NCBI GenBank assembly: GCA_040752915.1
Contig: JBFMHB010000029.1
Span: 1 to 37,093 of the forward strand
Reading direction: 5' to 3'
Source of the DNA: Acidobacteriota bacterium
Lineage (GTDB): Bacteria > Acidobacteriota > UBA4820 > DSQY01
DNA: 37,093 bases
Shown piece after piece: positions 6,683 to 29,928 of the stretch (positions are counted from its first letter, which is position 1; every line of letters begins with the position of its first letter). The position numbers were made by a program, and so were the translations under genes. Under the pieces are notes generated by a model that was not told where the DNA came from, made no database searches, and saw only the letters and a program-made list of their open reading frames with translations.

Positions 6683-6699
6683 GGGGGGAGGAAACGGAC

Positions 6700-10442: not shown

Positions 10443-10446
10443 GGCC

Positions 10447-14736: not shown

Positions 14737-14971
14737 GGCCTCGGTCGAACTCGATAGTCCGGCGTTGTGGGGCATATCCCTCACCGCCGGAGAGACGGGC
14801 ACGAAATGCCGGTTTTTTCCGGGTCCGCACGCTAATCAAAGAAAGGCCTGGGACCGGGGCGGCCGGGTCTCGCCATCCGAAGGGGGACGCCGGCCACCCA
14901 TTCGAGAGTCCCCGCGCGGCATCGAAGCCGCCGGCGGCCTGTCAGGGCCCCTTCGAGGAGGAGTGCCAAAG

Positions 14972-16960
14972 ATGAACGGAAAACCCACCGGGAAACGACG
15001 ACCGCTTCTCTGGATCCTCTTGGGGACTCTGCTCGTCTGCGGGGCCTCCTCCCTCGTGCGGGCCGAGGAAGCGGAGAAGATCGACTCCAAGTCGTGCATC
15101 AATTGCCACGAGGAAAGCGCTCACAAGAGCAAGATCGCCGACGACCTCCGGTTATCCATCCACAAGGACCTGGGGTGCCAGGACTGCCACGCGGACAAGA
15201 CCGTGTTCCCCCACGCGGCGCCGGAGAAGAAGTTCTCGGCCGGCTGCGAGGGGTGCCGCTCCTGCCACACGGAGGAGGCGGACCAGTACAAGAGGCACGG
15301 GCGGCTCAACGTGGGCGAATGCGGCGATATCCCCACCTGCGCCGCGTGCCACGGCACCCACGAGATCCTCCCCGCTTCGGCGAAGGCCTCGACCACGCAC
15401 CCGGCGAACCTCCCTGCAACGTGCGGGAAGTGCCACGAGAACATCGACCTCGTGAAGAAGTACGACATCCGGATCCAGCACCCCGTGGACATCTACACGA
15501 GTTCGGTCCACGGACAGGCGGCCAAGGGCGGCGTGTACGTGGCGGCGACGTGCATCGACTGCCATTCGACGGAGGCCTCGGCCCACCAGATCCTCTCCCC
15601 GGGCGATCACGACTCCTCCATCAACCACTTCAACATTCCCAAGACGTGCGGCAAATGCCACAAGGGAGTGGAGGGGGACTACTGGGAGGGCATCCACGGA
15701 AAGCTCGCCTCGCGCGGCGAGACGGACGCGCCGGTCTGCACCACCTGTCACGGTGAGCACGGCATCATTCCGCCCTCGGATCCCCGGTCGCCGGTTTCCC
15801 GGTCCAGGGTGGCCGAGGCCACGTGCTCGCCCTGTCACGAGTCGGAGGTGCTCAACGCGAAGTACGGCCTGCCCCCGGGTCGCCTGATCACCTTCATCGA
15901 CTCCTACCACGGCCTCAAGAGCAAGGCCGGGGACGTCCACGTGGCCAATTGCGCCTCCTGCCACGGAGTCCACCGGATCCTGCCCAGTTCGGACGTCACC
16001 TCCACGGTCAACCCCAAGAACCTGAGGGCCACCTGCGGCGAGTGCCACCCGGGCATCTCGGAGGCCCTCGCGGCCACTCCGATCCATGGCGTGAGAGGGG
16101 GCCTGCAGACCCGGGCGGCGGACATCGTCGAGAAGCTCTACATCGTCGTGATCGTGGTGATCATCGGCCTGATGGTCATCCACTGGCTCCTGGACCTGTG
16201 GCGCCACATCCAGGGCCTCTTGCGGCGCAAGCCTCAGGTCATCCGCATGCGGCCCGACGAGGTGGCCCAGCACGCCCTGCTCATGGTGAGCTTCATCACG
16301 CTCGTGATCTCGGGCTTCGCCCTCCGCTTCAGCGAGAGCTGGGTCTCCACGCTGTTCTTCGGCTGGGAAGGTGGGTTCGCGCTGAGGGGAACGGTCCACC
16401 GCGTCGCCGCCGTGGTGTTCGGCGGGGCCATCCTCTGGCACGCGGTTTTCCTCTTCACCCCGCGGGGGCGCAAGTTCGTCCGGGACATGTGGCCCAAACC
16501 CCAGGACTTCCGCTTCTTTCTGGATCGCATCCTCTACAACCTGGGGAAAAAGGAGAACGCGGCCTGCATCCAGCGCTTCTCCTACGTGGAAAAGGCCGAG
16601 TATTGGGCCCTGGTCTGGGGCACCGTCGTGATGGTGGCCACGGGCCTTCTGCTCTGGTTCGACAACTGGTTTATCCACTTCCTTCCCAAGGGGGCCCTGG
16701 ACGTGGCCCTTGTCGTCCACTATTACGAGGCATGGCTCGCCACGCTGGCCATCGCCGTCTGGCACCTCTATTCCACGGTGTTCAGCCCCCACGTCTACCC
16801 CATGAATCCCAGCTGGATCACCGGGTACATGCCTGAGGAGATGTATCACCACGAGCACCCCGGCTATCTGGAGGAGGCGAAGAAAGAGACGGCTGAATAC
16901 CTGAGAAGGGAGATCGACCGCCTTTCCCCGCACGGAGGGGACAAGAACGGGGCCGAGTGA
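14972..16960 (+). CDS. Eleven-heme cytochrome c fused to a cytochrome b membrane domain (CbcL-like)
   Basis: A 662-residue exported membrane oxidoreductase. Residues 8 to about 31 are a signal peptide (LLWILLGTLLVCG, cleavage near VRA-EE). The periplasmic part (about 42-380) has eleven CXXCH sites: CINCH, CQDCH, CRSCH, CAACH, CGKCH, CIDCH, CGKCH, CTTCH, CSPCH, CASCH, CGECH, plus several free His for bis-His ligation. From residue 386 come about five membrane helices with His pairs (VIHW, QHALL, VHRVAA, LWHAVF, VVHYYEA, VWHLYS), the diheme cytochrome b fold of formate dehydrogenase gamma/HydC. Geobacter CbcL has the same architecture and passes menaquinol electrons to periplasmic cytochromes. 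The ATG at 14972 follows GAGGAGGAG. An equivalent quinol-to-cytochrome role is inferred; direction and partner are unknown. Confidence 0.9.
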   Translation: MNGKPTGKRRPLLWILLGTLLVCGASSLVRAEEAEKIDSKSCINCHEESAHKSKIADDLRLSIHKDLGCQDCHADKTVFPHAAPEKKFSAGCEGCRSCHTEEADQYKRHGRLNVGECGDIPTCAACHGTHEILPASAKASTTHPANLPATCGKCHENIDLVKKYDIRIQHPVDIYTSSVHGQAAKGGVYVAATCIDCHSTEASAHQILSPGDHDSSINHFNIPKTCGKCHKGVEGDYWEGIHGKLASRGETDAPVCTTCHGEHGIIPPSDPRSPVSRSRVAEATCSPCHESEVLNAKYGLPPGRLITFIDSYHGLKSKAGDVHVANCASCHGVHRILPSSDVTSTVNPKNLRATCGECHPGISEALAATPIHGVRGGLQTRAADIVEKLYIVVIVVIIGLMVIHWLLDLWRHIQGLLRRKPQVIRMRPDEVAQHALLMVSFITLVISGFALRFSESWVSTLFFGWEGGFALRGTVHRVAAVVFGGAILWHAVFLFTPRGRKFVRDMWPKPQDFRFFLDRILYNLGKKENAACIQRFSYVEKAEYWALVWGTVVMVATGLLLWFDNWFIHFLPKGALDVALVVHYYEAWLATLAIAVWHLYSTVFSPHVYPMNPSWITGYMPEEMYHHEHPGYLEEAKKETAEYLRREIDRLSPHGGDKNGAE

Positions 16961-17101: not shown

Positions 17102-17593
17102 ATGTCCTTTAAACTGTCCACGCGAGCCCGCTACGCCCTTCGCATGATGCTGGACATTGCGCGGAACGGGGGCGAGAGCGAGCCGGTCAGTCTGTCCGGG
17201 GTTTCCGAGCGGACCCGAGTCTCCCGCGGATACCTGGAGCAGCTGGCCATCGTGCTGAGGAACCACAATCTCCTGAGGGGAGTCCTCGGAAAGCAGGGAG
17301 GATACCGGCTCGCGCGTCCGGCGCAGGAGATCACCCTCCGGGAAGTCGTGGAAGCGTCCATCGGTCCCATCGCCATTCTGGATTGCGTCTTGGAGCCGGA
17401 CCACTGCGCCCAGTCCGAAGCCTGCGAATGCCGATTCCTCTATCTCCTCATCAACCACCGTGTCGTGCAAGTATTTGAAGACTACTCCCTGGCCGACCTC
17501 ATCCGGCCGGGGTGGGCCGCCACGGTGAAGCGGGCCCTCGAAGAGGGAGACACCCTGGTGCTGCCCAAGGTCGCGGAGGGTAAGACCGGGTAG
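17102..17593 (+). CDS. Rrf2-family transcriptional regulator, first copy
   Basis: A winged-helix regulator of 163 residues in the Rrf2/IscR/NsrR family, which often senses redox state, NO or iron through an Fe-S cluster. The N-terminus reads LSTRARYALRMMLDIA. The recognition helix region is RVSRGYLEQLA, and the wing GKQGGYRLARP. The cluster-ligand candidates are C102, C108 and C110 (CX5CXC), with C95 nearby; the spacing differs from the IscR/NsrR CX5CX5C pattern. GGGGAGGAG precedes the ATG at 17102. It is monocistronic-looking, with 232 bp to the second copy. Rrf2 was first described from the Desulfovibrio hmc operon, so regulation of one of the redox operons here is a reasonable guess. Confidence 0.92.
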   Translation: MSFKLSTRARYALRMMLDIARNGGESEPVSLSGVSERTRVSRGYLEQLAIVLRNHNLLRGVLGKQGGYRLARPAQEITLREVVEASIGPIAILDCVLEPDHCAQSEACECRFLYLLINHRVVQVFEDYSLADLIRPGWAATVKRALEEGDTLVLPKVAEGKTG

Positions 17594-17747
17594 AGCCGCG
17601 CCCTGCATCTGTGTCGAATTGTAACGTTTTGCCTCCCCATCGGGACCTTCGCTCTGCTAACTGCAACACGCTCTATGTGAACGACTTACGTCCGCTTCTC
17701 GTGGAATGCGGACTCTGCAGATGAGGCGGGAAGCCGGCGCCTCAAGT

Positions 17748-17770
17748 GGGCGACTCAACCCGCCCGTTTT
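17748..17770 (+). terminator. Weak terminator-like hairpin after the first rrf2 gene
   Basis: GGGCG (17748-17752) pairs with CGCCC (17761-17765) over an 8-base loop and is followed by GTTTT. The five-pair stem is short, so termination may be partial. Confidence 0.3.
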
Positions 17771-17776
17771 AATCTC

Positions 17777-17803
17777 CTAGTAATATTACTGGACTAGTAT
17801 GAG
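17777..17803 (+). promoter_or_regulatory. Palindromic AT-rich operator/promoter of the second rrf2 operon
   Basis: AGTAATATTACT at 17779-17790 is a perfect 12-bp palindrome in otherwise GC-rich DNA. It is followed directly by TGGACTAGTATGAG, the element shared with the first rrf2 upstream region. TACT/AGTA half-sites recur three times here. TAATAT and TAGTAT could serve as -10 boxes; no clear -35 is visible. It ends 22 bp before the chosen start codon, a position suited to repression, perhaps autoregulation. Confidence 0.45.
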
Positions 17804-17825
17804 TACCGGCCTCAGGATTTCCCCC

Positions 17826-18287
17826 ATGAGGATATCCACGCGGGCACGCTACGCGCTACGCATGATGCTCGACATCGCCCGGAACAGCGAGGACGGCCAT
17901 CCCGTGAGCCTTGCGGACGTGGCGGAGCGGACGGACCTCTCCCGGGGCTATCTGGAACAACTCACGGCGCCGCTGAGAAACCAGCGCCTGCTCAAGGGCT
18001 TCCCTGGAAAGCAGGGCGGATATCGGCTCACTCGGCCGGCCGATGCCATCACCCTGCGCCAGATCATCGAAGCCGCCATCGGACCCGTCGCCATACTCGA
18101 TTGCCTGGAAGATCCCACGACCTGCCTTCGGGCGGGGGATTGCGAATGCCGCATCGTATACGGGCTGATCAACGAGGAGATCCGAAGCGTATTGGAGGCG
18201 TTCACGCTGGAGGACCTGAAGGATCCACGGCTCAAGGGGGAACTCCACGGGAAGCTGGAGGCGCGGAGAAGGGAGGCGAGGCACTGA
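17826..18287 (+). CDS. Rrf2-family transcriptional regulator, second copy
   Basis: A paralogue (153 aa) of the first Rrf2 protein, with STRARYALRMMLDIARN, DLSRGYLEQL and GKQGGYRL almost unchanged. It has the same CX5CXC candidate ligands (C100, C106, C108) and an upstream C93. I prefer the ATG at 17826, which aligns with the paralogue and has AGGA nine bases upstream. The ATG at 17799 lies inside the palindromic operator and lacks a ribosome site. The stop overlaps the macro-domain gene (TGATG). It therefore heads the Tmc-like operon and probably regulates it; the inducing ligand is unknown but an Fe-S cluster is likely from the Cys. Confidence 0.92.
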   Translation: MRISTRARYALRMMLDIARNSEDGHPVSLADVAERTDLSRGYLEQLTAPLRNQRLLKGFPGKQGGYRLTRPADAITLRQIIEAAIGPVAILDCLEDPTTCLRAGDCECRIVYGLINEEIRSVLEAFTLEDLKDPRLKGELHGKLEARRREARH

Positions 18288-18814
18288 TGACCGAGAAGGT
18301 GATACGGGGAAAGACCCTCAGGCTGGTGCAGGGGGACATCACAGATCTGGACGTGGAGTCCTTCGTCTTCTACGCCAGGCCCGACCTCAAGCTGGGAACC
18401 GGCTTCGGAGGGGCCATCGCCCAGCGTGGAGGTCCCTCCATCCAGGCCGAGTTGAACGGTCTGGGCCCGCTGGAACCGGGCGAGGCCGTTGTGACCCAGG
18501 CCGGGAACCTCAAGGCGAAGCGCATCATCCACGCCGTGGGCCCGCGCCATCACGAGCCCGACGAGGAGGCGAAGCTCCGGAAGGCGGTTCGGAGCGCCCT
18601 CGCCGCCGCGGAGGCGGCCGGGCTGAAACAGGTCGCCTTCCCAGCCATGGGTGCGGGATTCTACGGGGTTTCTCTGGACCTCTCCAGCAAAGTCGTCGTG
18701 GAGGAGATCGCGGCCCACCTCGGGAACGAGTCCCGCCTGTCGGAGGTCGTGGTCTGCGTTCTGGACCAGCGCGAACTCAAGCCCTTCGGCGCGCGCGTCG
18801 GCGCCCTCGGTTAG
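18287..18814 (+). CDS. Macro-domain protein
   Basis: A 175-residue single macro domain, a fold that binds ADP-ribose, O-acetyl-ADP-ribose or related nucleotides and sometimes hydrolyses them. Conserved parts are LVQGDITDLDVESFVF at the start, GFGGAIAQRGG (the phosphate loop), KRIIHAVGP, and FPAMGAGFYG with the second loop. The usual Asn-Ala-Ala-Asn segment after the first strand is replaced by FYARPDLK, so catalytic de-ADP-ribosylation of the MacroD type may be absent and simple ligand binding more likely. The ATG at 18287 overlaps the Rrf2 stop and the gene ends 12 bp before the TmcC-like gene, so it is part of the redox operon. A nucleotide- or NAD-derived signal acting on the complex is speculation. 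Confidence 0.85.
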   Translation: MTEKVIRGKTLRLVQGDITDLDVESFVFYARPDLKLGTGFGGAIAQRGGPSIQAELNGLGPLEPGEAVVTQAGNLKAKRIIHAVGPRHHEPDEEAKLRKAVRSALAAAEAAGLKQVAFPAMGAGFYGVSLDLSSKVVVEEIAAHLGNESRLSEVVVCVLDQRELKPFGARVGALG

Positions 18815-18826
18815 AAAGGAACGGAC

Positions 18827-19525
18827 ATGACCGAAAGCACGCTCCTTCACTTCGCCGAGCACCGCCTCCAGGAGATCGCCCTGGTCTTCATGGCGGCCGT
18901 GTACATCCTCCGCCTGAGGTGGATGTTCTCCTTCAAGTTCGGGAAGGAAAGGCAGGCCTTTACGGGAAAGGGGAGCCCGGAGAATCGGAAGAAAGCCATC
19001 GCCTACTCCCTGTTCAACGTGGCCATGCCCTGGGCCATGGAAAGCACGCGCCGGAACCCCGTCTTCTGGATCCAGTTCGTGATCTTCCACCTCGGGGTCG
19101 TCGCGGCCATCACCCTTTCCTTCATCATTCCTTACGCGCCGGGCCTTCTCGAACTCCCCGGAGTGGTGATTTCGTTCCGCGTCTTCATCGCGGCGGCCTT
19201 CCTGGTGGGCTGCATCCGGATCGTAAGGCGGTTGGTGCGGCCGCACATCCGCGCCATCAGCACCCCCGACGACATCTTCTCCCTCGTCCTGCTGACGGTG
19301 TGGTTCCTCTTTGGGGTTCTCGCCGCGCCGAACACGCCCGAGAAGGCCGAGTGGCCCCTCCTGACCTTCTTCCTTCTGACGGCCTTCTTTCTGGTCTATG
19401 TCCCCTTCAGCAAGATCTCCCACTATCTCTACTATCCCTTCGGGCGGTACTTCCTGGGCAGGACCATGGGCCACCGGGGAGTCTTTCCCCTTCAGCGGGG
19501 CGCCGGATCGGCGGCCGCCCGGTAG
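18827..19525 (+). CDS. tmcC: TmcC-like cytochrome b membrane subunit
   Basis: A 232-residue integral membrane protein with about five helices (near 14-29, 85-105, 116-134, 148-165, 180-200) and His in HFAEHRLQE, IFHLGVV and SKISHYLYYPF, consistent with heme b. The PFSKISHYLYYPFGRYF ending is typical of the TmcC/HmcE/DsrM group, as is a large basic loop between helices 1 and 2. AAAGGA precedes the ATG at 18827. It is paired with the Fe-S/receiver fusion gene 39 bp downstream. It should move electrons between the quinone pool or a periplasmic cytochrome and that subunit. No tetraheme cytochrome (TmcA) gene is present, so the electron donor must be encoded elsewhere. Confidence 0.82.
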   Translation: MTESTLLHFAEHRLQEIALVFMAAVYILRLRWMFSFKFGKERQAFTGKGSPENRKKAIAYSLFNVAMPWAMESTRRNPVFWIQFVIFHLGVVAAITLSFIIPYAPGLLELPGVVISFRVFIAAAFLVGCIRIVRRLVRPHIRAISTPDDIFSLVLLTVWFLFGVLAAPNTPEKAEWPLLTFFLLTAFFLVYVPFSKISHYLYYPFGRYFLGRTMGHRGVFPLQRGAGSAAAR

Positions 19526-19564
19526 GGCGGGCGCGCGGCCGTTCACGTCCAAGAGGTGACGCCG

Positions 19565-21295
19565 ATGAGCATGGACAGATCGTACAAGGCGCAGAAGTTC
19601 CTGGAGAGGCTTCCGCAGAAGCTGTCCAGGCCCGTGGTCTCTTCCCTGGTGGGATGCGTCCACTGTGGAATGTGCACCGAATCCTGCCATTACGTGCTGA
19701 CGAATCCGGACGACGTGACCTACGCTCCGGCCTACAAGGCCGACCGCATCCGCAAGATCTTCAAACGCCACGTGGATTGGACCGGGCGGGTCATCCCGTG
19801 GTGGGTGGGTGCCAAGAGCGTCTTCACCGACGAGGAGCTCGAGGAGCTGAAAGACATCGCCTTCGGAAAATGCACCAACTGCCGCCGCTGCACGCTCAAC
19901 TGCCCCATGGGTGTGGACTTCGCGGTGCTGAACCGAATGACCAGGGGACTCCTCGTCCACGTGGGGGTCATGCCCGAGGGCGTGGCCGTCGTGAGCAAGG
20001 ATCAGTGGGAGATCGGCAACCAGATGGGCGTCCTCAAGGAGGACTACCTGGAGACCATCCAGTGGATGTCCGACGAATTGGTGGAGGAGGTGGGCGACCC
20101 CGCGGCCGCCATCCCCATCGACAAGGTCGGGGCGGACGTCGTCTACTCCATCAATCCCCGTGAAGTGAAGTACGATCCCCGGACCATCAAGGACGCGGCG
20201 AAGATCTTTTATTACGCCGGAGAGAACTGGACCATGCCCAGCGAAGGCTGGGACATGACCAATTTCGGCCTCTTTTCGGGGGACGACGAACTCGGGGGGG
20301 CCGTGGCCCGTCGGCTCTTCGAAAAGGTGAAGGAGCTGAAAGGGAAAAAGCTCGTCATCTCCGAGTGCGGCCACGGATACCGGTCCACCCGCTGCGAAGC
20401 GCAAAACTGGGCCGGCATGGACCTCGATTTCGAGATGGAGAGTTCGGTGGTCACCATGCTCCGGTACATCCAGGAGGGGCGCATCAAGGTGGACCGGAGC
20501 AAGAACGCCCTCTCCGCCACCTACCACGACTCCTGCAACAACGCCCGCTCCTGCGGCATGTTCGAGGAGCCCCGCGAACTGCTCAAGCACGTTCTCGGTG
20601 ACTTCCGGGAGATGTACCCGAACCGTGCGGAGAACTACTGCTGCACCGGCGGGGGGGGCGCCATGTCCATGTCCGAATACGCGCCCCGGCGCCTGAAGTC
20701 GGCCAAGGTGAAGGCAGACCAGCTCTCGGCCACGGGGGCCCAGGCCGTCGTGACCTCCTGCCACAACTGCGTGGACGGCCTCACGGATCTCATCAAGCAC
20801 TACAAGCTCGATATGAAGGTCACCCAGCTCGTGAACCTCGTGGCGGACGCCCTCGTTCCGCAGGAGAGGAAGGCGCGCGTGGAAGTCAAGGCGCATGCCC
20901 CGGCTTTCGCCGGGAAGACCGTGCTGGTTGTGGACGACGAGCCCGACATGGTGGCCTTCATCGGCGCCGTCCTGGAAGACAACGGGGCCACGGTCCTGAA
21001 AGCCTCGAACGGCGAGGAGGCCTTGGAGCTGGCCCGCACCCGCCGGCCCGACCTCATGACCCTGGACCTTTCCATGCCCGGGAAGAGCGGGGTGGACGTC
21101 TTCATCTCTCTCCGAGAGGATCCGGATCTCCGGGCCCTTCCCATCTGTGTGATCACGGGCAAGCCCGAAATGCGGAGGCTCATCTACGAGCGTCCCGTTC
21201 CTCCGCCGGAAGGCTTCATGAACAAGCCCGTGGACGAGGAATCCCTCGTTCTCAACCTGAGGAAGATTTTCGAACTGAAGGGAAAGCTCCACTGA
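19565..21295 (+). CDS. tmcB: TmcB/HdrD-like Fe-S protein fused to a C-terminal CheY-type receiver domain
   Basis: A 576-residue cytoplasmic fusion. Residues 1 to about 435 are an HdrD/TmcB/DsrK-type electron-transfer subunit: cluster 1 CVHCGMCTESC (C31-C41), cluster 2 CTNCRRCTLNCP (C103-C113), and a CCG domain with DSCNNAR (near 323), NYCCTGGGG (near 358) and SCHNC (near 398). After a short linker, residues 450-570 are a complete receiver: VLVVDDEPD, phospho-acceptor Asp near 500 in MTLDLSMPG, Thr in VITGK, Lys in MNKP. The linker is in frame and no ribosome site separates the halves, so this is one polypeptide, not two genes. ATG 19565 follows AAGAGGTG; GTG 19556 is less likely. Phosphorylation of an electron-transfer subunit is the obvious implication; it remains inference. 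The partner kinases are probably those encoded downstream. Confidence 0.93.
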   Translation: MSMDRSYKAQKFLERLPQKLSRPVVSSLVGCVHCGMCTESCHYVLTNPDDVTYAPAYKADRIRKIFKRHVDWTGRVIPWWVGAKSVFTDEELEELKDIAFGKCTNCRRCTLNCPMGVDFAVLNRMTRGLLVHVGVMPEGVAVVSKDQWEIGNQMGVLKEDYLETIQWMSDELVEEVGDPAAAIPIDKVGADVVYSINPREVKYDPRTIKDAAKIFYYAGENWTMPSEGWDMTNFGLFSGDDELGGAVARRLFEKVKELKGKKLVISECGHGYRSTRCEAQNWAGMDLDFEMESSVVTMLRYIQEGRIKVDRSKNALSATYHDSCNNARSCGMFEEPRELLKHVLGDFREMYPNRAENYCCTGGGGAMSMSEYAPRRLKSAKVKADQLSATGAQAVVTSCHNCVDGLTDLIKHYKLDMKVTQLVNLVADALVPQERKARVEVKAHAPAFAGKTVLVVDDEPDMVAFIGAVLEDNGATVLKASNGEEALELARTRRPDLMTLDLSMPGKSGVDVFISLREDPDLRALPICVITGKPEMRRLIYERPVPPPEGFMNKPVDEESLVLNLRKIFELKGKLH

Positions 21296-21311
21296 GGCGC
21301 TCCGATCCGAA

Positions 21312-21337
21312 CCCGGCCGGCCCTGCGGCCGGCCGGG
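21312..21337 (+). promoter_or_regulatory. GC-only intercistronic hairpin before the kinase ribosome site
   Basis: CCCGGCCGGCC (21312-21322) pairs perfectly with GGCCGGCCGGG (21327-21337) around a CTGC loop. There is no T-run, so it is unlikely to terminate by itself. It ends just before the GGGAGG ribosome site of the kinase at 21350 and could stabilise the upstream mRNA or lower kinase translation. Confidence 0.55.
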
Positions 21338-21349
21338 CGGGAGGTTCCC

Positions 21350-22381
21350 GTGGGTGAGCTGGAGGAGCGCCTTCTCAACAGAATGGGAGGCTGGGCGGCC
21401 CTGGTCGACGGCCGATTGAAGGTCGTGGCCTCCAGCGCCGCGGCGCGGGAGGCCTACTCCCCCCTCCCGGGGAGCACCTGCTCCCAGACCTTCGGGGTGG
21501 CGGCCGCGGACTGCGTCGATTGCCCCGTCCGCAGGGCCCTGGAGGAAGGCGCCTCCCATACCGTCGAGGAGACCTTCCGAGGCTTGTCCGGAGAGGCCGT
21601 GGAGGTATCCGTCACGGCGGTCCCTCTCCTGGGCGGGCCGGAGGGTCCCCCGCTCGTCCTTCTCCTGGCCCGCCCAAAGGGTTCTGCGGCCTCTCTGCCG
21701 GTCCAGTCTCGGCTGGCTTCCCTGGAGGCCTTCGTGGGGTCCATCACCCACGCTCTGAAGGGCGCCCTCAACTCGCTCGAAGGCGGCGTATACCTCCTGG
21801 AATCGGGCCACCGGAAGGGGGACCCCGAACGGGCGAGGGCGGGTGCGGTCATGGTCCGCCGGAACCTCGCGCGCGTCCGCTCCGTCGTGGGAAACATCCT
21901 GTACTACGCCAGAGACCGGGAGGTGCACTCCGAGACGCTCTCCGCCAGGGAGGTCGTGGAGTCGACCCTGGCCGGTTGCCGGAAGATCTCCGAGGCGTTG
22001 AACGTGGATCTGACCGGCCGTTCCGCCGAGGCTTCCTTTCCGGGCGATCCGAACGCCATCCAGGCCATGCTCGTCAACCTCGTGGAGAGCGCCCTCGACG
22101 CCTGCGGCGGCGAGGAGGCGAACGGAGGCGGGCACGTCGTCCTGGAAGCGCGGAGCGACCCGCCGTGGATCGTGTTCGAAGTCCGCCACGGAGGGACTCC
22201 GATCGATCCGGCCACCCTCGCGGGCGCGCTCGGGGACGTGTACGTTCCCCACGGCGCGGACCGGGCGGGGCTGTGGATTCACGCCGCCTGTCGCGTGGCC
22301 CGGGCCCACGGCGGCACCGTGGCTTTCTCGATGACGGAGGCCGGAGAGGCGCGTTGGGTGGTTCGCCTTCCCGATAGGTGA
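21350..22381 (+). CDS. Degenerate PAS histidine kinase
   Basis: A 343-residue kinase-like protein. The N-terminal PAS-like region holds the CX10CX2C motif (C44, C55, C58) found in the other kinases. The phospho-acceptor region has H134 in THALKG, where Ala follows His, then the shared SLEGGVYLL signature. The N-box is kept (NLVESALDAC), but the rest of the ATP site has decayed: the DxGxG loop reads RHGGTPID, and the second glycine-rich loop reads GADRAGLWIHA rather than GTGLGL. It may therefore bind ATP weakly or serve as a phosphotransfer/dimerisation partner for the intact kinase at 22798. GTG 21350 follows GGGAGG. It sits between the Fe-S/receiver fusion and a receiver-only gene. Confidence 0.82.
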   Translation: MGELEERLLNRMGGWAALVDGRLKVVASSAAAREAYSPLPGSTCSQTFGVAAADCVDCPVRRALEEGASHTVEETFRGLSGEAVEVSVTAVPLLGGPEGPPLVLLLARPKGSAASLPVQSRLASLEAFVGSITHALKGALNSLEGGVYLLESGHRKGDPERARAGAVMVRRNLARVRSVVGNILYYARDREVHSETLSAREVVESTLAGCRKISEALNVDLTGRSAEASFPGDPNAIQAMLVNLVESALDACGGEEANGGGHVVLEARSDPPWIVFEVRHGGTPIDPATLAGALGDVYVPHGADRAGLWIHAACRVARAHGGTVAFSMTEAGEARWVVRLPDR

Positions 22382-22408
22382 AGCGCGGAAGATCAAGTAG
22401 GAGGATCC

Positions 22409-22801
22409 ATGGAGCCTCCCAAGAAGATCATGGTGGTCGACGACGAGCCGGACACCCTTACCTTCCTGTGCGCCTGGCTGGAGGACGAGGGGCACCTTCC
22501 CCGCGCGGTGTCCGACCCGGATGCGGTGCTGGAGGCGGCGCTGAGGGATCTCCCGGACCTCCTCCTTCTGGACGTCCACATGCCCAACCAATCGGGCATC
22601 CAGGTGTACCGGTCGCTCCGGGAAACCCCCGCTCTCCGGGATCTGCCCGTGATCTTCATCACCGGCGCGAGCGACGTCCAGCTCTTCGACAAGTCGTGCG
22701 CGCCCATGCCGCAGCCATCCGGCCGGATCGAAAAGCCCATTGATCTCTCCGCGCTGGCGCGCGCCATTCGGAAGGCTCTCAACGGGGGAGGCGGGCCATG
22801 A
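22409..22801 (+). CDS. Receiver-only response regulator
   Basis: A 130-residue CheY-like protein: D11-D12, phospho-acceptor D55 in LLLDVHMPN, Thr in FITGA, Lys in RIEKP. No output domain follows. TAGGAGG precedes the ATG at 22409. Its last codons overlap the next kinase start (ATGA at 22798), which ties the pair translationally. The sequence between the Thr and Lys contains CAPMPQP, a Pro-rich turn also seen in the receiver of the TmcB-like fusion and in the receiver at 24309. It is likely an intermediate in the relay of the Tmc-like operon. Confidence 0.9.
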   Translation: MEPPKKIMVVDDEPDTLTFLCAWLEDEGHLPRAVSDPDAVLEAALRDLPDLLLLDVHMPNQSGIQVYRSLRETPALRDLPVIFITGASDVQLFDKSCAPMPQPSGRIEKPIDLSALARAIRKALNGGGGP

Positions 22802-24237
22802 AGGGGATCGGCGAGATTCTCTCCCCCCTGCTCCCCGGCGTGGAGGATCTCTTCCGGTCCGCGCCCTGCTTCATGACGGTTCAGGACCGGGAAGGCAGAA
22901 TCCTCGCGGCCAACGAGAACTTTCAGGCCACCTTCGGCGGCTCCGTGGGGGCCTTCTGTTTCGCGGTCTACAAGGGCCGCGGCGAGAAGTGTCGTGACTG
23001 TCCCGTGGACGAGACCTTTGCGGACGGGCGGTGCCACGTGAGTCAGCAGGTCGTCGCCTTGCCGGACGGTCGGTCCATGCCCATCCTCGTCTACACCTCG
23101 CCCGTCCTGGGGCCGGACGGGAGCGTGCGGGCCGTGGTGGAGGTTTCGGCGGATCTCTCTCCCGTCAAGGCTCTGGAGAACAAGCTCCGCCGCAGTCGCG
23201 AGCGCTACCGCGCCTTGTTCGAGGATGTGCCCTGCTACATCTCGGTCCAGGACCGGGACCTGAGGATCGTGGAGTCCAATCGGGCCTTTCGGGAGGATTT
23301 CGGGGACCGCGTGGGGGCCTTCTGTTTCGATGTCTACAAGCACCGCTCGGAGCCGTGCCTCAATTGCCCCGTGGCGCGGACCTTCGAGGACGGAAACGTC
23401 CACCACAGCGAAGAGATCGTCACCGCCCTCGACGGACGTCAGGTCAACACCCTGGTTTCCACCGCTCCCATCCGAAACGGCGACGGCGAAATCGAAATGG
23501 TGATGGAGATGTCCACGAACATCACCGAAATCCGCAGCCTGCAAGGCCAGCTGGCCAACCTCGGCCTCCTCGTCGGCTCCGTATCCCACGGCATCAAGGG
23601 CCTCCTCACCGGGTTGGACGGGGGGATGTACATGATGAACACGGGCATAGAAAGGCAGCGCCCGGAACGGGTGGAAGAGGGCTGGAAGATGATCCGGCGG
23701 AACGTGGAGCAGATCCGCAGCGTGGTTCTCGATCTCCTCTACGTCGCCAAGGAGCGGGAACCCGTCTGGGAAAGCGCCTCCCTCAAGGACTTGGCGTACT
23801 CGGCCCTCGAAGCGGTTCGCCCGCGGGCCGAGAGCCTGGGCGTCCACCTGGAGGCCCATTTGGAAGAGGTGGGACCCTGCGACATGGAGCCGAAGTCGTT
23901 GCACGCGGCCCTCGTGAACCTCCTTGAGAACGCCCTCGACGCGTGCCGGGTCGACCGGAGAAAGGACAGGCACTCGGTCCGGTTCGGCCTGGCCAGGGAG
24001 AACGGGTCCGCGGTGCTGACCGTGGAGGACGACGGCATCGGGATGGACCGGGAGACTCGAGAGCGGATCTTCACCCTCTTTTTCTCCTCCAAGGGGCTCG
24101 AGGGAACGGGGTTGGGTCTCTTCATCTCCCACAAGGTGGTCGAAAAGCACGGCGGGGACATCTCCGTGGATTCGGAGCCGGGGCGCGGAACGCGGTTCAG
24201 GGTCCGGCTTCCCTTCGTGCGGAGCGCACCCCCCTGA
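22798..24237 (+). CDS. Cytoplasmic PAS-PAS histidine kinase with CX10CX2C motifs and HGIKG H-box
   Basis: A soluble sensor kinase of 479 residues, closely built like the one at 10447. PAS 1 (about 18-122) has C54-X10-C65-X2-C68 and PAS 2 (about 138-245) has C176-X10-C187-X2-C190, each in a CFxVYKxR context and followed by TFxDG. H264 lies in SHGIKG, with Gly where Glu or Asp is expected, then LDGGMYMMNTG. The catalytic domain is complete: NLLENALDAC, DDGIGM, GTGLGLFIS. Start ATG 22798 overlaps the receiver gene. It is the last gene of the Tmc-like operon; a strong hairpin follows. It is presumably the active kinase for the local receivers, including the one fused to the Fe-S subunit. Confidence 0.92.
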   Translation: MKGIGEILSPLLPGVEDLFRSAPCFMTVQDREGRILAANENFQATFGGSVGAFCFAVYKGRGEKCRDCPVDETFADGRCHVSQQVVALPDGRSMPILVYTSPVLGPDGSVRAVVEVSADLSPVKALENKLRRSRERYRALFEDVPCYISVQDRDLRIVESNRAFREDFGDRVGAFCFDVYKHRSEPCLNCPVARTFEDGNVHHSEEIVTALDGRQVNTLVSTAPIRNGDGEIEMVMEMSTNITEIRSLQGQLANLGLLVGSVSHGIKGLLTGLDGGMYMMNTGIERQRPERVEEGWKMIRRNVEQIRSVVLDLLYVAKEREPVWESASLKDLAYSALEAVRPRAESLGVHLEAHLEEVGPCDMEPKSLHAALVNLLENALDACRVDRRKDRHSVRFGLARENGSAVLTVEDDGIGMDRETRERIFTLFFSSKGLEGTGLGLFISHKVVEKHGGDISVDSEPGRGTRFRVRLPFVRSAPP

Positions 24238-24308: not shown

Positions 24309-24683
24309 CTAGCCGACCAGCCGCTTCACTTCCGCGACGAGCTCCTCGGGCTTCACCGGCTTCTCCAGATAGCCTTCCGGCGCGGGGACCTGCGTCCGCG
24401 TCGAGATGAACTGTTTGAACTCGTGGGATACGCCCGTGACGATGATCACGGGGATCTTCTTCAGGGCGGCGTCCTCCTTCAAGGTCCGGTACGTGCGCAC
24501 GCCCGTCATCTCCGGCATGGTGATGTCCAGGGTGATGAGGTCGGGCTTGCCGGCGGCCACCTGGGCGAGGGCCTCCTCGCCGTTGGAGGCTTCCAGGGTC
24601 TCGTATCCGGCGTCCTTCAGAACCGTGCTCAGGTAGGTCACCACGTCGGGCTCATCGTCGACGACCAGTATCTTCTTCGCCAT
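24309..24683 (-). CDS. Receiver-only response regulator of the third redox module
   Basis: A 124-residue CheY-like receiver: D9-D10, phospho-acceptor D53 in ITLDITMPE, Thr in IVTGV, Lys in YLEKP, no output domain. The loop PAPEGYLEKP resembles PPPEGFMNKP in the TmcB-receiver fusion, so the two receivers look more like each other than like CheY. It lies 72 bp downstream of an HdrD-like gene on the same strand and ends at a strong terminator. No kinase gene is in this operon, so phosphorylation by a kinase from the convergent operon is plausible. Confidence 0.92.
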   Translation of the reverse strand: MAKKILVVDDEPDVVTYLSTVLKDAGYETLEASNGEEALAQVAAGKPDLITLDITMPEMTGVRTYRTLKEDAALKKIPVIIVTGVSHEFKQFISTRTQVPAPEGYLEKPVKPEELVAEVKRLVG

Positions 24684-24755
24684 GTCGGATCCCCTCTTGA
24701 GTTCCGGACTTGAGACTTGTGCCGCCGCAATCCGGAATCTCCCATACCAAATGGT

Positions 24756-26363
24756 TCAGTGCCACTCCCAATCGATGAAGCCCGGTTTGACATCCAGCAT
24801 GCAATTCACGATCAGTTCCACGAGCCCGCCGTACAGGATCCGGTGCTTCTCCCACATCTGGTAGTACGCCAGCATGTCGCGGAACTGGCCCTTGCAGTTG
24901 CTGCACGGGGCGCAGATGTACTTGTGGATCGAGGGATCGAGGCAGTCGGCGAAGGCGTTGAGGACCTGCTGGAGCTTCTTCCGGCCGGAGACGTGGAAAC
25001 GCCAATCCTGGAAGTTGTTGCCGCTCATGATGGCGAAGCCGGAGCCGCCTCCGCAGCAGTAGTTGTCCACCCCGTGGGGCCACATTTCTCGGAACTGGGG
25101 GCAGATCTTTCGGACGATCTCGCGCTGGGGCTCCACGACCCCCATGAGCCGGACCAGGTTGCAGGGATCGTGAAGGGTCACGGGGAAATCGTTCCGGGAG
25201 GGGTCCAGACGGAGTCGGTCGCCCATCACGATGTCCCGAAGGAGCGTCATGGAGGACTCCCTGGGGATGTTGAGCTCGCCCGTGAGAACCCGGTCGGCGA
25301 TGACCGAGAGGGCCTTGTGGGCGTGGCCGCACTCGCCGAGGACGATCTTCTTGACCTTCAGCTTCTTCGCGGCCTCGGCGTGCTTGATCGCCACCCGGGC
25401 GAACTGCGCGTCGTCGTACCAGAGGCCGTAGTTGATGGAGTCGTAGCCGGCCAACTCGGAGGAGAGCGTCCAGGTGATGCCGGCGGCGTTCAGAATGACG
25501 GCGAAGGCCCCGGGGTTCTCGGGCCACGCCATGATCTCTCCGGCGTTGTGGATGAGGAGGACGTCCGCGCCCTCCACGTCCCACGGCGTCTCCACCTTGA
25601 TGCCGGTCTTCTCCGTCATGTCCTCGTCGATGAACTCGATGTTGTCCTTCACCACCAGGGAGGTCATGCCCGTGGAGGAGCCCACCTTGAGCTGGAGGAC
25701 GGAGCCGTTGTCGTGGCATTCCTTGGCGTTGATCCCCATCTCCATGCTGAAGAGCTTCCGGAGCTCGTGGGCCACGAGGCCGTTGTCCGCGCCGATGGGA
25801 CAGGTCTGGGCGCACCGGCGGCACAGGTTGCACCGGTAGGAGAGTTCGGCCAGCCTGGCCACGAGGGGCCAGTTCAGCTCGATGTCTCCGTGCTGCCACG
25901 CCGAGAGAAGCCCGCCGTGCTTGACGTACTTGAAGTAAAGGCGGCGCATGATCTCGGAGCGGAAGGTGGGCCGGTAGAGCTCGTTCCCGCCGCTGGCCTC
26001 GTAAATGTGGCACGCCTCGGAGCAGGTCTGGCACTTGGCGCAGTGCTCCATACTGAGGACCAGCGGCTGAAGGAAGGTCCAGTTGTTTTCCTTGGTGAAG
26101 AGCTTGTCCAGCCCGGAGAGGAATTTCTGGACGAGGGCGTCCTCCTCCTCCCGGGTCTTGGGCTGGGGGATGTTGATGGCGCAGGTGTCGTCCAGGCCGC
26201 ACTCCACCGCGGCCAGGGTCTTTTCCGCGAGGGGAGTCCAGCTATGGTCCTTGTCCGGGGAGTCCAGGGGGGGCGGGAGGGGCATGAGGTCCCGGTTCTC
26301 CAGGTGGGTCAGGGGATTGCGGTCCCGGCGGGACATGTCGGAGAGGTTGATCTTGTCCTTCAT
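24756..26363 (-). CDS. HdrD/DsrK-like Fe-S subunit with CCG domain
   Basis: A 535-residue cytoplasmic-side electron-transfer protein of the DsrK/HdrD/TmcB family. Two regular [4Fe-4S] motifs are visible: CAKCQTCSEAC (C108-C118) and CNLCRRCAQTCP (C178-C188). A CCG domain follows with DPCNLVR, NYCCGGGSGF and CAPCSNCKGQ. A long N-terminal extension (about 100 residues) precedes cluster 1, as in DsrK, which is longer than HmcF. The ATG at 26363 overlaps the stop of the cytochrome b gene (ATGA) and is preceded by GGGGGAGAAG; the longer frame to 26408 is discarded for that reason. Together they form an HdrDE/DsrMK-like quinone-linked pair. It could be a true DsrMK remnant or a separate lineage; DsrJOP genes are absent. 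Confidence 0.88.
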   Translation of the reverse strand: MKDKINLSDMSRRDRNPLTHLENRDLMPLPPPLDSPDKDHSWTPLAEKTLAAVECGLDDTCAINIPQPKTREEEDALVQKFLSGLDKLFTKENNWTFLQPLVLSMEHCAKCQTCSEACHIYEASGGNELYRPTFRSEIMRRLYFKYVKHGGLLSAWQHGDIELNWPLVARLAELSYRCNLCRRCAQTCPIGADNGLVAHELRKLFSMEMGINAKECHDNGSVLQLKVGSSTGMTSLVVKDNIEFIDEDMTEKTGIKVETPWDVEGADVLLIHNAGEIMAWPENPGAFAVILNAAGITWTLSSELAGYDSINYGLWYDDAQFARVAIKHAEAAKKLKVKKIVLGECGHAHKALSVIADRVLTGELNIPRESSMTLLRDIVMGDRLRLDPSRNDFPVTLHDPCNLVRLMGVVEPQREIVRKICPQFREMWPHGVDNYCCGGGSGFAIMSGNNFQDWRFHVSGRKKLQQVLNAFADCLDPSIHKYICAPCSNCKGQFRDMLAYYQMWEKHRILYGGLVELIVNCMLDVKPGFIDWEWH

Positions 26364-27295
26364 TTCTTCTCCCCCTGCCAAGGGTTGGTGGTGGCCACGT
26401 CCGCCCACGTGCGTTTTCCGTCGGCGGTCACGTGCTCCGCCGACCAGGTGGGACGGTAGGTCAGGTATTCCTGAAGCTTCTTTTCAATGTCGCTGCCGGG
26501 ACGGTTGGGATGGTCCTGCCAGCGGACACTGTGGTAGGTGAAGTACTTGCCCACGAAATGCGACATGTGCGTCAACGGGATGTAGGCCGCCAGGAGCCCG
26601 CACAGGATCAAGCCGACTCCGAAAAGGCCAGGGATGTCCAAGGACAGGTCCGCCCTGAGCAGGCCCATCGTAATGCCCACGACCCCAGGACCTGCCGGGT
26701 CCATGAGGAAGTATCCGGCGGACAGGACGCCGAAGGCCACCACGAAGAAGACGAGGTTAAAGATGTCCCCGGCCGTCGTGTAAGTCTTGAGCGCCGGGTC
26801 CGTCAAGCGCCGGTGCAAGAGGAGCAGGGCCCCGACCATCGAGAGCGTCACGCCGGCGCCGCCCATGAGCAGGCAAGCCCAGTGAAGCAGGGAGCCCAGC
26901 GGACCTCCCAGGGAGGAGGGAAGGAAAACCCCGAGCAGGGCCGAGAAAAGGACGAGTCCCACCGTCCCCATCAGGAGATACAGGCCGAAGTGGAAGGGAA
27001 AGGAGCGGTACCAGAGCTTCCGGTTGAACTCGTGGAGGGCTTTCAGGAAGAGCATCTCTGGGACCATGAAGCTCAGTTCGCCCCAGAGGTTGAAATGGGA
27101 CGGCTTGGTCCACCAGTCCGTCTCCTCGAAGTAAGATCCGCCGTGCTTCACGCGGTGGACCGCCTCATGAGGGACCGGGTACAACTCCCACCGGAGGTGG
27201 ATGGGCTGGCGGGCATAGAGGACGGCCCGCGCCACCGTGGCGATGGCGAACACCGCCGCAGAAAGATACAGCACCGCATAGACTAACGTGGTCAT
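26360..27295 (-). CDS. DsrM/NarI-like cytochrome b membrane subunit
   Basis: A 311-residue membrane protein with about five helices: residues 4-25, then after a long hydrophilic loop 100-125, 135-160, 178-200 and 220-245. The loop segment YPVPHEAVHRVKHGGSYFEETDWW and the following WGELSFMVPEMLFLKALHE and FPFHFGLYLL are distinctive of cytochrome b partners of HdrD-like proteins. His in FHFGLYLL, LLHWACL and PLTHMSHFVGKYFTYH are candidate heme ligands. A basic C-terminal tail of about 50 residues is cytoplasmic. The ATG at 27295 follows GGGGGAGA. As first gene of a three-gene operon with the HdrD-like and receiver genes, it likely exchanges electrons with quinone. Confidence 0.85.
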   Translation of the reverse strand: MTTLVYAVLYLSAAVFAIATVARAVLYARQPIHLRWELYPVPHEAVHRVKHGGSYFEETDWWTKPSHFNLWGELSFMVPEMLFLKALHEFNRKLWYRSFPFHFGLYLLMGTVGLVLFSALLGVFLPSSLGGPLGSLLHWACLLMGGAGVTLSMVGALLLLHRRLTDPALKTYTTAGDIFNLVFFVVAFGVLSAGYFLMDPAGPGVVGITMGLLRADLSLDIPGLFGVGLILCGLLAAYIPLTHMSHFVGKYFTYHSVRWQDHPNRPGSDIEKKLQEYLTYRPTWSAEHVTADGKRTWADVATTNPWQGEKK

Positions 27296-27596
27296 CGGTT
27301 CTCCCCCTGTCCTGAAAAACCTCACCCAGAAAGAAATCAATATAAAGCCAATGGAGCAAAAACCCGAAAAACAACTAGGGGTTTCTCATTCCTGGGGTAA
27401 ATCGCGCACGGCCCGGGCTCTCCGGGGCGCGGACAGTGTAGGCGAGGAGTCCGTTTGGGTGGACCAAAATGTTGCAATCCGGGAACGCGGAGGCCGGAGG
27501 ATTGGGGCCGTGGCGGAGCCAGGCCCTCCTCCGGGTCCCGCTGGGGGGCTTTCGCGGCCCGTTCTTCGTGGTATCGTAAGTCAGGAAAGGCCGGTC
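27296..27596. promoter_or_regulatory. Divergent intergenic region between cytochrome b and diguanylate cyclase genes
   Basis: About 300 bp. The first 80 bases (27310-27385) are clearly more A/T-rich than the rest of the window and contain TATAAAG/TATATT-like hexamers on both strands, so the promoter of the minus-strand redox operon probably lies here. I could not find a well-spaced -35/-10 pair. No RNA gene or repeat is evident. Confidence 0.3.
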
Positions 27597-29840
27597 ATGC
27601 AGGGAAAGCGGCTGCCGCTGACGCTCACCATCCTCTCTCTGGTCCTTCTGGTTTGGATGGGGACTCGCGCCTCGTGGCGCATCCATGACCTCTGGGCCGC
27701 TCCAGCCGTGCTCCTTTTCTTCTTCCTGGCCTACCAGTTTGACGTCCATGTGCCGGGCCTGGGCTATCTCAACCTCGATCACGTCGTGGCCTTCCCCGCC
27801 ATCGTGGTGCTTCAGAACCCCGTGCTGGCCGGAACGCTGGCGGGGGTCGGACTCCTCGTCAGCCGCGCCTACCGACGCGGGTTCGGAGGGTTGGGGCTGG
27901 TGCACGTATGGGGAGCCGCCCTCTCCGCGCTGTCCATCGCTCTGGGGGGGGCCTTCTACCTCGCCCTGTCCCGGGGAGGGCCTGAGCAATCGCTCCTGGA
28001 ATTCGCCATTTTCCTTTCGGCCATGCTGGTGATGACCGGAGCCAACTGGTTCTTCTACGTGGCGGGAAACCCGTCCTCCTTGAAGGCCCCTCTTCGAACC
28101 ACGTTCAAGAAATCGTTCGTCAGCAACCTGGGCTGGGTCCTGCTCTCCTCGCCCCTCGTGGCCCTGGTGGTCGGAGCCACCCGGGAGGAGCGCTACGTTT
28201 CCGTCCTCATGGGCAGCCTGACCCTCCTCATCCTCGTCTGGGCCATGCGGCTGTATGGGGGACTTCAGGAAAAGAACGCCGCGCTCATCCACGCGACGGG
28301 CCGTCAGGAGTTCCTCCAGCAGCTCTCCCTGACGACGGCCGGATCCTTGGAGAACGAGTCCTTCCTCTTGACCTTGCTCTCGGGGCTTCGAGACTTCGTC
28401 CCCTGGGACCGGGGCCTGTTGCTGGTCCTGCCGCCGGGGTCCGCCCGCCAGCCCCTCCTCGTGAGTCTGGAGGGCCTCCCCCTGGATCCCCACGCGGCCA
28501 AGGAGGCCTTGCTGGATCTCCTGGAGGCGCCGGAGCTCAGGGAACCCCGGCTCGTGACCGGCTCCGCTGTGGTCCCGCTCCTCCTGGAAGGGGCGGGATG
28601 TCAGGTCTCGGTGGCCGTGGCGACGACGGAGCTTGCCTTCGGCGTCCTGGTCCTGGAAAGGGGAGCCGGAAAGGACGTGTTCACCGGGAACGAATGCAAA
28701 TTCCTCGAGTTGGCCCTGGCCCAGATCGCCGGCCACGTCCAGGACGAGATTCTCAAGAAGCAGCTCATGGACACCAACCGAAAGCTCCTTCGCCAGACCG
28801 ACTACCTCTCCCAGATCCTCAAAATCTCGAATCTCCTCAAGGTCCACCTCGACGTCCAGACGATCCTGGAGAAGGTGGCGGAGGGGATCCGCGAGGGGAT
28901 GGGGTTCCGGACGGTCCTCGTGAGCCTCTATCGGGAGGACGAGCACCTCTTCGAGAGAGTCGCCCAGGCCGGACTCTCGGACCGGTGGGAGGAGGTGCGG
29001 AAGGCGAGGCCTCCCGCCGAGCAGATCTTCGAACTCATCCATCCGCGCTACCGGGTGGGAAGCTGCTATTTCGTGGGGCACGCCGACGCCGTCATCGGGC
29101 CCTACGACATCCTTCCCCTGAACCCCCGCTTGCCCAAGGAACCGGACGACTGGGACCCCTTGGACACCCTCATCGTCCCGCTGGAGGACAAGGACGGCCG
29201 TCTGCTGGGAATCATCTCCGTGGACGAGCCCGTGGACGGGAAGATCCCCTCTCTGGAGACGCTTCGGGCTCTGGAAGTCCTGGCCAACCAGACCGTGAAT
29301 GCCCTGGAGAGCGCGCAGATCCACGCCCGGACCCGGCGCCAGGCGGTCATGGACGGACTCACGGGATTGTACAACCACGGTTACTTTCAGGAGGTCTTGG
29401 CGAAGGAGGCCCGCGAGCACGCCGAATCCTCGCTGCCCTTCTCGATGCTGATGATGGACCTGGACGGCTTCAAGGTCGTCAACGACACCTTCGGCCACCT
29501 TGCGGGCGACGAGGTGCTCAGGGCCGTCGCGGAGACGGTGAGGGCCCTCATCCGGCGTGAGGACATCGCGGCCCGGTACGGCGGTGAAGAATTCGCCCTA
29601 TTCCTTCCGAGGTGCGATGCTTCCACGGCGCTCACCATCGGCGAGAGGATCCGTAGCGCCGTCGAGGGCCTGCGGGTCCACGTCGGAGGCGGCGGGCAAA
29701 CGGCGTCCGTGACCCTGAGCGTGGGCCTGGCTTCCTTCCCCACGGACGGCCGGGACCACCACGAGATTCTCGACCTGGCCGACCAGGCGCTTTACCAGGC
29801 CAAGCGTCAGGGCAAGAACCGGGTGAATCAGATCGCGTGA
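27597..29840 (+). CDS. Membrane-bound GAF-GAF diguanylate cyclase
   Basis: Makes the second messenger c-di-GMP from GTP. The 747-residue protein has about six N-terminal membrane helices (residues 8-215), a GAF-like domain (about 235-380), a coiled region, a second GAF domain (about 405-570, with the long YDILPLNPRL/TLIVPLEDKDG pattern), and a GGDEF domain (about 585-745). The active site reads GGEEF (near 662), preceded five residues earlier by RRED, the RxxD inhibitory site, so it should be active and feedback-inhibited. The start TGLYNHGYF and LDGFKVVND metal-site segments are intact. ATG 27597 follows GGAAAGG. It lies 88 bp before the giant PAS receptor and is likely co-transcribed with it. 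Confidence 0.92.
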   Translation: MQGKRLPLTLTILSLVLLVWMGTRASWRIHDLWAAPAVLLFFFLAYQFDVHVPGLGYLNLDHVVAFPAIVVLQNPVLAGTLAGVGLLVSRAYRRGFGGLGLVHVWGAALSALSIALGGAFYLALSRGGPEQSLLEFAIFLSAMLVMTGANWFFYVAGNPSSLKAPLRTTFKKSFVSNLGWVLLSSPLVALVVGATREERYVSVLMGSLTLLILVWAMRLYGGLQEKNAALIHATGRQEFLQQLSLTTAGSLENESFLLTLLSGLRDFVPWDRGLLLVLPPGSARQPLLVSLEGLPLDPHAAKEALLDLLEAPELREPRLVTGSAVVPLLLEGAGCQVSVAVATTELAFGVLVLERGAGKDVFTGNECKFLELALAQIAGHVQDEILKKQLMDTNRKLLRQTDYLSQILKISNLLKVHLDVQTILEKVAEGIREGMGFRTVLVSLYREDEHLFERVAQAGLSDRWEEVRKARPPAEQIFELIHPRYRVGSCYFVGHADAVIGPYDILPLNPRLPKEPDDWDPLDTLIVPLEDKDGRLLGIISVDEPVDGKIPSLETLRALEVLANQTVNALESAQIHARTRRQAVMDGLTGLYNHGYFQEVLAKEAREHAESSLPFSMLMMDLDGFKVVNDTFGHLAGDEVLRAVAETVRALIRREDIAARYGGEEFALFLPRCDASTALTIGERIRSAVEGLRVHVGGGGQTASVTLSVGLASFPTDGRDHHEILDLADQALYQAKRQGKNRVNQIA

Positions 29841-29928
29841 GTCCGGGGGCGGGAGGGCCCCCTTGAACCGGAGAGGCACGGGCGCCCGGAACCGCGGGAG
29901 CGGGGGCGTCCCATCGGAGGCCGTGGCC

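Follow-up and report, generated by a model that had tools for sequence, protein, structure and literature searches.

What can a kinase control when its receiver is part of a respiratory protein? The usual targets of two-component systems are transcription and dedicated signalling enzymes. In a 37,093-nucleotide stretch of DNA from an Acidobacteriota bacterium (the window), one gene joins a receiver domain to an Fe-S protein of the type found in membrane redox complexes. The original prediction was that phosphorylation of this receiver could switch electron flow, a post-translational control of respiration.

Architecture of the fusion protein

The fusion gene is a single uninterrupted frame on the forward strand, running from an ATG at 19565 to a stop codon that ends at 21295 and encoding 576 aa; a Shine-Dalgarno-like sequence, AGAGGTGA, lies immediately 5' of the ATG. 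The protein has three parts.

19565-20860 (+): Fe-S/CCG core, residues 1-432 (Pfam Fer4_8, CCG)
20861-20914 (+): linker, residues 433-450, variable (24% identity) and predicted disordered
20915-21295 (+): receiver domain, residues 451-576, phospho-acceptor D501 (Pfam Response_reg 1e-18)

Pfam matches fell at residues 30-117 (Fer4_8, 2e-10), 319-402 (CCG, 5e-12) and 453-563 (Response_reg, 1e-18). The ligand cysteines of two [4Fe-4S] motifs can be read from the sequence (C31/34/37/41 and C103/106/109/113). The CCG site is a full Cx(n)CCx(n)CxxC arrangement, C324-x34-C359C360-x38-C399xxC402; its five cysteines, like all ligand cysteines of the core, are invariant among relatives of the fusion. 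The PF02754 match (46.1 bits; cut-off 20.6) makes the protein a member of the CCG superfamily (HdrB/HdrD/DsrK), and cluster binding is predicted from the ligand residues. A flexible linker leads to one complete receiver (PF00072, 68 bits; cut-off 30.2) with all of its phosphorylation-pocket residues: D457, D458, D501, T531 and K554. By profile and pocket this is a two-component receiver, and its adjacency to a kinase predicts that it would accept phosphate from that kinase. The open reading frame, Pfam and the visible ligand residues thus agree with the architecture first described: one frame, two [4Fe-4S] motifs, a CCG domain and a complete CheY-type receiver.

An AlphaFold2 model built with 72 relatives was confident in both parts (mean pLDDT 86, pTM 0.70), with pLDDT below 50 only at residues 436-444, within the linker. 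Foldseek searches with this model returned EtfD of mycobacteria first (9ojn, 9e-14) and after that mainly solved receivers. EtfD, an Fe-S/CCG respiratory oxidoreductase, was also the best solved structure by sequence (4e-11), the match lying in the fusion core and not in the receiver. It differs from the fusion in being a longer single chain (1042 aa) and in its link to beta-oxidation.

Conservation of the fusion among relatives

A scan with one genome per species gave 211 stretches, and the best 80, at 66-85% identity over nearly the whole query, were analysed. These loci were ranked on whole-query match, which favours fused forms, so counts from them are not a frequency. Core and receiver were in one open frame in 80 of these 80 loci, among them L039, which ends at a contig edge, and three loci from records whose titles describe whole chromosomes (CP070813, CP070717 and CP070812). 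The junction was also open in genomes G007 (85% identity) and G001 (56% identity). A sequencing error joining two genes, with a stop or frameshift near 20880, had been named as a possible refutation; the open junctions rule out such an assembly or frameshift artefact. In a less biased sample, drawn from the window's phylum (199 genomes), seven of the ten top matches were fused proteins and three consisted of the core only.

The best 80 relatives, all from other species, span at least 14 phyla by deposited names, which for metagenome-assembled genomes can be outdated or wrong. By these names they include Zixiibacteriota, Acidobacteriota, Myxococcota, Thermodesulfobacteriota, Planctomycetota, Calditrichota, Gemmatimonadota, Ignavibacteriota, Elusimicrobiota, Bacteroidota and several candidate phyla.

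Loss of the phospho-acceptor in homologues was the second possible refutation, and it failed as well: D501 was kept in 81 of 81 sequences. D457, D458, E459 and K554 were conserved in every alignment row reaching them, and position 531 was always T or S. This invariant pocket rules out a degenerate receiver. Mean identity to the query was about 79% in the core, 57% in the receiver and 24% in the linker. Within the receiver, mean entropy was lower in the fused domains than in standalone receivers of the same loci, both for alpha4 (0.89 versus 1.59) and for beta5 (0.55 versus 1.32). Such a conserved alpha4-beta5 face is compatible with a dedicated protein contact, although it is no proof of one.

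In a tree built without the closest unfused proteins, the fused proteins formed one clade. Including the closest unfused proteins separated the G001 fusion from the main fused clade by three unfused proteins; a single fused clade was not rejected (AU p 0.257). The main fused clade had support of 99/97 and its phyla were intermixed, indicating horizontal transfer. Long-branch distortion affected a further tree that included distant DsrK proteins.

The operon and its kinases

The genes flanking the fusion lie on the same strand.

17799-18287 (+): Rrf2-family transcription regulator, an optional part of the module (Pfam Rrf2 6.5e-32)
18287-18814 (+): macro-domain protein (Pfam Macro 3.6e-27)
18827-19525 (+): NarI-type membrane cytochrome b, HmcE/TmcC-like, partner of the fusion (NCBIfam HmcE 8e-17, under cut-off)
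21350-22381 (+): kinase-like protein with an H box and without the DxGxG motif, found only in the window and G007
22409-22801 (+): receiver-only protein (Pfam Response_reg 1.7e-17)
22798-24237 (+): soluble PAS-PAS histidine kinase (HATPase_c 1e-25)

With a second Rrf2 gene at 17102-17593, the genes from 17102 to 24237 comprise solely Rrf2, macro, cytochrome b, fusion, kinase and receiver genes. Pfam found no DNA-binding output on the receivers of this operon, fused or standalone.

The order macro gene, NarI-type cytochrome b, HmcF-like-receiver fusion, PAS kinase and, usually, receiver-only gene was conserved. Among the 61 loci with enough flank, the macro gene was upstream in 61 and the HmcE-like cytochrome b in 57, and the PAS kinase was downstream in 59 and the standalone receiver in 52. 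The adjacent kinase of the original prediction is real and kept across many phyla. Rrf2 was less constant: the gene lay upstream of the fusion in 20 of the 80 loci, with three conserved cysteines (C95, C102 and C108), and was present in 17 of the 61 with enough flank. The macro-domain gene, with its ADP-ribose-type domain, was the most constant neighbour of the fusion, yet it was absent in G001 and from the surroundings of unfused pairs. The cytochrome b has hydrophobic segments, and its H88 and H199 were invariant among relatives.

The kinase at 22798, originally proposed as the phosphodonor, proved a sound choice: the kinase found downstream of the fusion in other loci is its ortholog. It has no transmembrane or hydrophobic segment and keeps the phospho-acceptor H264, and a Cys-x10-Cys-x2-Cys set is conserved in each of its two PAS domains. 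These cysteines make a redox, sulfur or metal cue plausible. The 21350 protein retains an H box and an N box but has lost the DxGxG of the ATP domain; it is probably inactive, and could possibly be a pseudokinase that modulates the real kinase. Gene order in G007 was the same as in the window, with the 21350-type protein first and the conserved kinase second. The G001 module consists of Rrf2, cytochrome b, fusion and kinase. No further receiver was found near the G001 fusion, so the fused receiver is the obvious partner of that kinase.

Comparison with known redox complexes

The closest curated models were those of HmcEF and TmcBC of Desulfovibrio, in which, as in the fusion module, a NarI-like cytochrome b is paired with an Fe-S/CCG protein. 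Identity with these proteins was rejected on score: the fusion reached 317 bits for HmcF (NF045711, cut-off 750) and 302 bits for TmcB (NF045724, cut-off 735), and the cytochrome b reached 62 bits for HmcE (cut-off 275). DsrK was rejected at 242 bits (NF045796, cut-off 400). The 16-heme HmcA and the HmcB, HmcC and HmcD subunits of Hmc were absent between 17102 and 24237, and Pfam found no tetraheme TmcA and no other periplasmic cytochrome or cytochrome c gene in the operon over the same interval. With scores this far under the cut-offs and no periplasmic cytochrome subunit, the module belongs to neither the Tmc nor the Hmc complexes. It is further unlike both in the fusion of a receiver to the Fe-S subunit and in the operon kinase. 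The earlier label of an HdrD/TmcB-type subunit needs correcting accordingly.

DsrMK likewise combines a cytochrome b with a CCG Fe-S subunit; it differs in lacking a built-in receiver and an operon kinase, and the host has a separate, true dsrMKJ. DVU0259-family receivers were the best non-enzymatic NCBIfam match for the fused receiver and for the standalone receivers at 24309 and 22409. They stand alone, unlike the fused receiver, which at 74 bits (NF045717, cut-off 160) was not assigned to the family.

Receiver genes beside such redox complexes were already known: the hmc operon contains the receiver and Rrf2 genes rrf1 and rrf2, described as regulators of hmc expression (PMC10924467). Paralogs named dsrM2K2 have also been reported, in sulfite and sulfate reducers (PMC6018796). 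In the full-text literature searched, which included dsr surveys and few subscription journals, we found no description of the fusion, of its kinase-bearing operon or of its place inside dsr clusters. Each part is of a known type; what is provisionally new, as far as checked, is their combination.

Linkage to dissimilatory sulfite reduction

Among 40 carrier genomes, DsrC was present in 39 and dsrA scored above its curated cut-off in 37. G007, included in the dsrA search in addition to these 40, had a partial dsrA just under the cut-off. The three carriers without dsrA above cut-off were L096, L097 and L113; either their genomes are incomplete or they use the module independently of Dsr. In the 199-genome sample of the phylum, dsrA was found in 19 genomes, and all seven fusion carriers were within those 19 (P about 2e-8 on the assumption of independent genomes, an assumption that related genomes violate).

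Gene order gave stronger evidence for a Dsr link than co-occurrence in genomes. The operon directly followed dsrC in six loci, and dsrMKJ followed the operon in five of the six. In L045, L076, L087, L094 and L104 one strand reads dsrA, dsrB, dsrC, macro, cytochrome b, fusion, kinase and then dsrM, dsrK and dsrJ, which places the operon between dsrC and dsrM; four of these five insert a receiver, a cytochrome b and a DsrK-like gene between kinase and dsrM. L105 carries dsrABC immediately before the operon; in L042, aprA and dsrA lie upstream, on the opposite strand. By co-occurrence and co-localisation, the fusion operon is a candidate component of the Dsr pathway, and electron exchange with DsrC is predicted from this genomic setting.

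The host genome itself carries, on another contig, aprA, qmo genes, dsrAB, a DsrL-like gene and dsrC with both C-terminal cysteines. On that same dsr contig, dsrM and dsrJ flank a DsrK-like gene, with an NrfD-type gene at the dsrP position. Pfam DsrD, considered as a marker of direction, matched in only 6 of 41 genomes. Directly after the host dsrB lies an 82-aa gene with no Pfam match (L132:10601-10849); it has homologues in L045, L071, L079 and L118, one of which also sits after dsrB. Possibly it encodes a diverged DsrD, in which case the scarcity of Pfam DsrD matches would be accounted for.

Unfused homologues and other redox modules

Genomes G116, G183 and G207 have a cytochrome b/Fe-S pair 57-61% identical to that of the window and without a receiver. 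These three lack dsrA and the macro gene, and no kinase-receiver pair follows the unfused pair. More distant unfused proteins (41-43% identity) occur in G027, G032, G040, G044 and G056, all genomes without dsrA. Since unfused forms sit in genomes lacking dsrA, the receiver package is associated with the Dsr setting.

The window holds an unfused parallel to the fusion on the reverse strand, 24309-27340.

24309-24683 (-): separate receiver gene directly after the DsrK-like gene (Response_reg 8e-26)
24756-26408 (-): DsrK-like Fe-S/CCG protein without a receiver (NCBIfam DsrK 323 bits, cut-off 400)
26360-27340 (-): NarI/DsrM-like cytochrome b, partner of the DsrK-like protein (Pfam Nitrate_red_gam 1.7e-8)

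The DsrK-like protein is 30% identical to the fusion core. Its pairing with a receiver was kept in G001, G006 and G008 (88% and 78-83% identity), and in other genomes this module often adjoins the fusion operon. A third redox cluster, 5252-12475 (+), encodes a CCG Fe-S protein, a NarI-like protein, an Fe-S protein and a protein in which NrfD is joined to a multiheme domain of c3 type (8200-10032), and ends with a receiver, a PAS kinase and a receiver. All three redox complexes of the window are thus accompanied by receivers, fused in one.

Elsewhere in the window, 14969-16960 (+) encodes a single protein that joins a multiheme cytochrome c to a membrane domain of cytochrome b561 type. A 1540-aa open reading frame at 29863-34485 (+) has, by eye, a solute-binding-protein-like start followed by many PAS-like repeats, and adjoins a GAF-GGDEF protein at 27288-29840.

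Proposed mechanism and alternatives

In complexes of the HdrDE type, a cytochrome b on the quinone side is coupled to a CCG Fe-S subunit that handles disulfides. We propose that the fusion and the cytochrome b at 18827 would form a two-subunit membrane oxidoreductase of the HdrDE/DsrMK/HmcEF type. The cytochrome b would exchange electrons with menaquinone, and the Fe-S/CCG core with a thiol/disulfide carrier, to judge from the neighbourhood most plausibly DsrC. DsrC-trisulfide is an established substrate for reduction by DsrMK(JOP) (PMC10504309).

The cysteine-rich PAS kinase at 22798 may sense a cytoplasmic redox or sulfur cue and would phosphorylate D501 of the fused receiver. Phosphorylation might then alter the contact made by the alpha4-beta5 face and turn electron flow up or down, either sign being conceivable. 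We give even odds to the reading in which the fusion serves as cytoplasmic Fe-S subunit of an enzyme like DsrMK or HmcEF, an oxidoreductase that is linked to menaquinone, works on DsrC or another thiol carrier of that sort, and is tuned by phosphorylation of its receiver.

Architecture, conservation, operon and gene order, and Dsr linkage are established directly here. Gating by phosphorylation would fit the fused frame of the best 80 loci, the invariant phosphorylation residues, the conserved alpha4 and beta5, and the kinase in 59 of 61 loci. It would also fit the G001 module, where the fused receiver is the only one found beside the kinase, and the operon receivers without DNA-binding output. 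Against it, a flexible, variable linker and a rate difference between core and receiver would be expected also of a merely tethered domain, and the kinase may serve mainly the standalone receiver that usually follows. The three carriers without dsrA, whose genomes may be incomplete, count against the Dsr link.

The main rival reverses the direction of information. The redox state of the Fe-S core would control how the tethered receiver takes up phosphate from the kinase, or inhibits it, so that signals run from respiratory complex to kinase to standalone receiver and electron flow is ungated. The standalone receiver in 52 of 61 loci gives the kinase a second target, and there is a precedent in FixT of Caulobacter, an Fe-S-binding single-domain receiver that inhibits the kinase FixL as feedback (PMC7078487). 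FixT and the fusion both place a receiver and an Fe-S centre in one polypeptide linked to a redox-sensing kinase (PMC7078487); in FixT, however, the single receiver binds its own cluster, and there is neither a CCG domain nor a respiratory subunit. Against this rival, the G001 locus has the fusion and the kinase but no second receiver was found in its vicinity, and the receivers of the window's operon have no DNA-binding output. We consider feedback or a phosphate sink unlikely.

The receiver might instead be a scaffold that docks or dimerises, recruiting the kinase, the standalone receiver or a second redox complex (the neighbouring DsrK-like module) to the membrane, or that controls assembly. 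The alpha4-beta5 face would suit this role, as would the DsrK-like module adjoining the operon in many loci. A pure scaffold, however, need not keep the D, D, K and T/S residues kept here, and we judge this account rather improbable. Very improbable is a circuit that ends in gene expression, as proposed for rrf1 and rrf2 of hmc, with no direct role of the fusion in electron-transfer control: the hmc precedent (PMC10924467) and the upstream Rrf2 genes favour it, but neither type of receiver has a DNA-binding domain and most loci with enough flank have no Rrf2. An erroneous join or functionless passenger receiver draws on nothing except receiver and linker identities below that of the core and, against the same frame in 80 of 80 loci, the invariant pocket and the conserved kinase neighbour, has a next to negligible chance.

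Post-translational control of the redox complex is the best reading of the Dsr genomic link together with the conserved architecture, residues and kinase. The original prediction of such control is partly supported: its HdrD/TmcB label needed correcting, and phosphotransfer and gating are predictions from the genomic context. The fuller account, a Dsr-pathway oxidoreductase through which a cysteine-rich kinase would switch electrons to DsrC without transcription in mostly uncultured sulfate and sulfite reducers, we hold tentatively, at somewhat below an even chance.

In these organisms an intact receiver is built into a respiratory Fe-S subunit, an arrangement conserved across many phyla and encoded within dsr gene clusters or adjacent to them. 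Homologues with and without the receiver offer a natural comparison for any effect of it on electron-transfer rates. If phosphorylation gates the fusion, a kinase would directly control anaerobic respiration, a globally important process. The finding suggests that in many uncultured sulfate reducers a signalling system may control respiration directly, and not only through gene expression.
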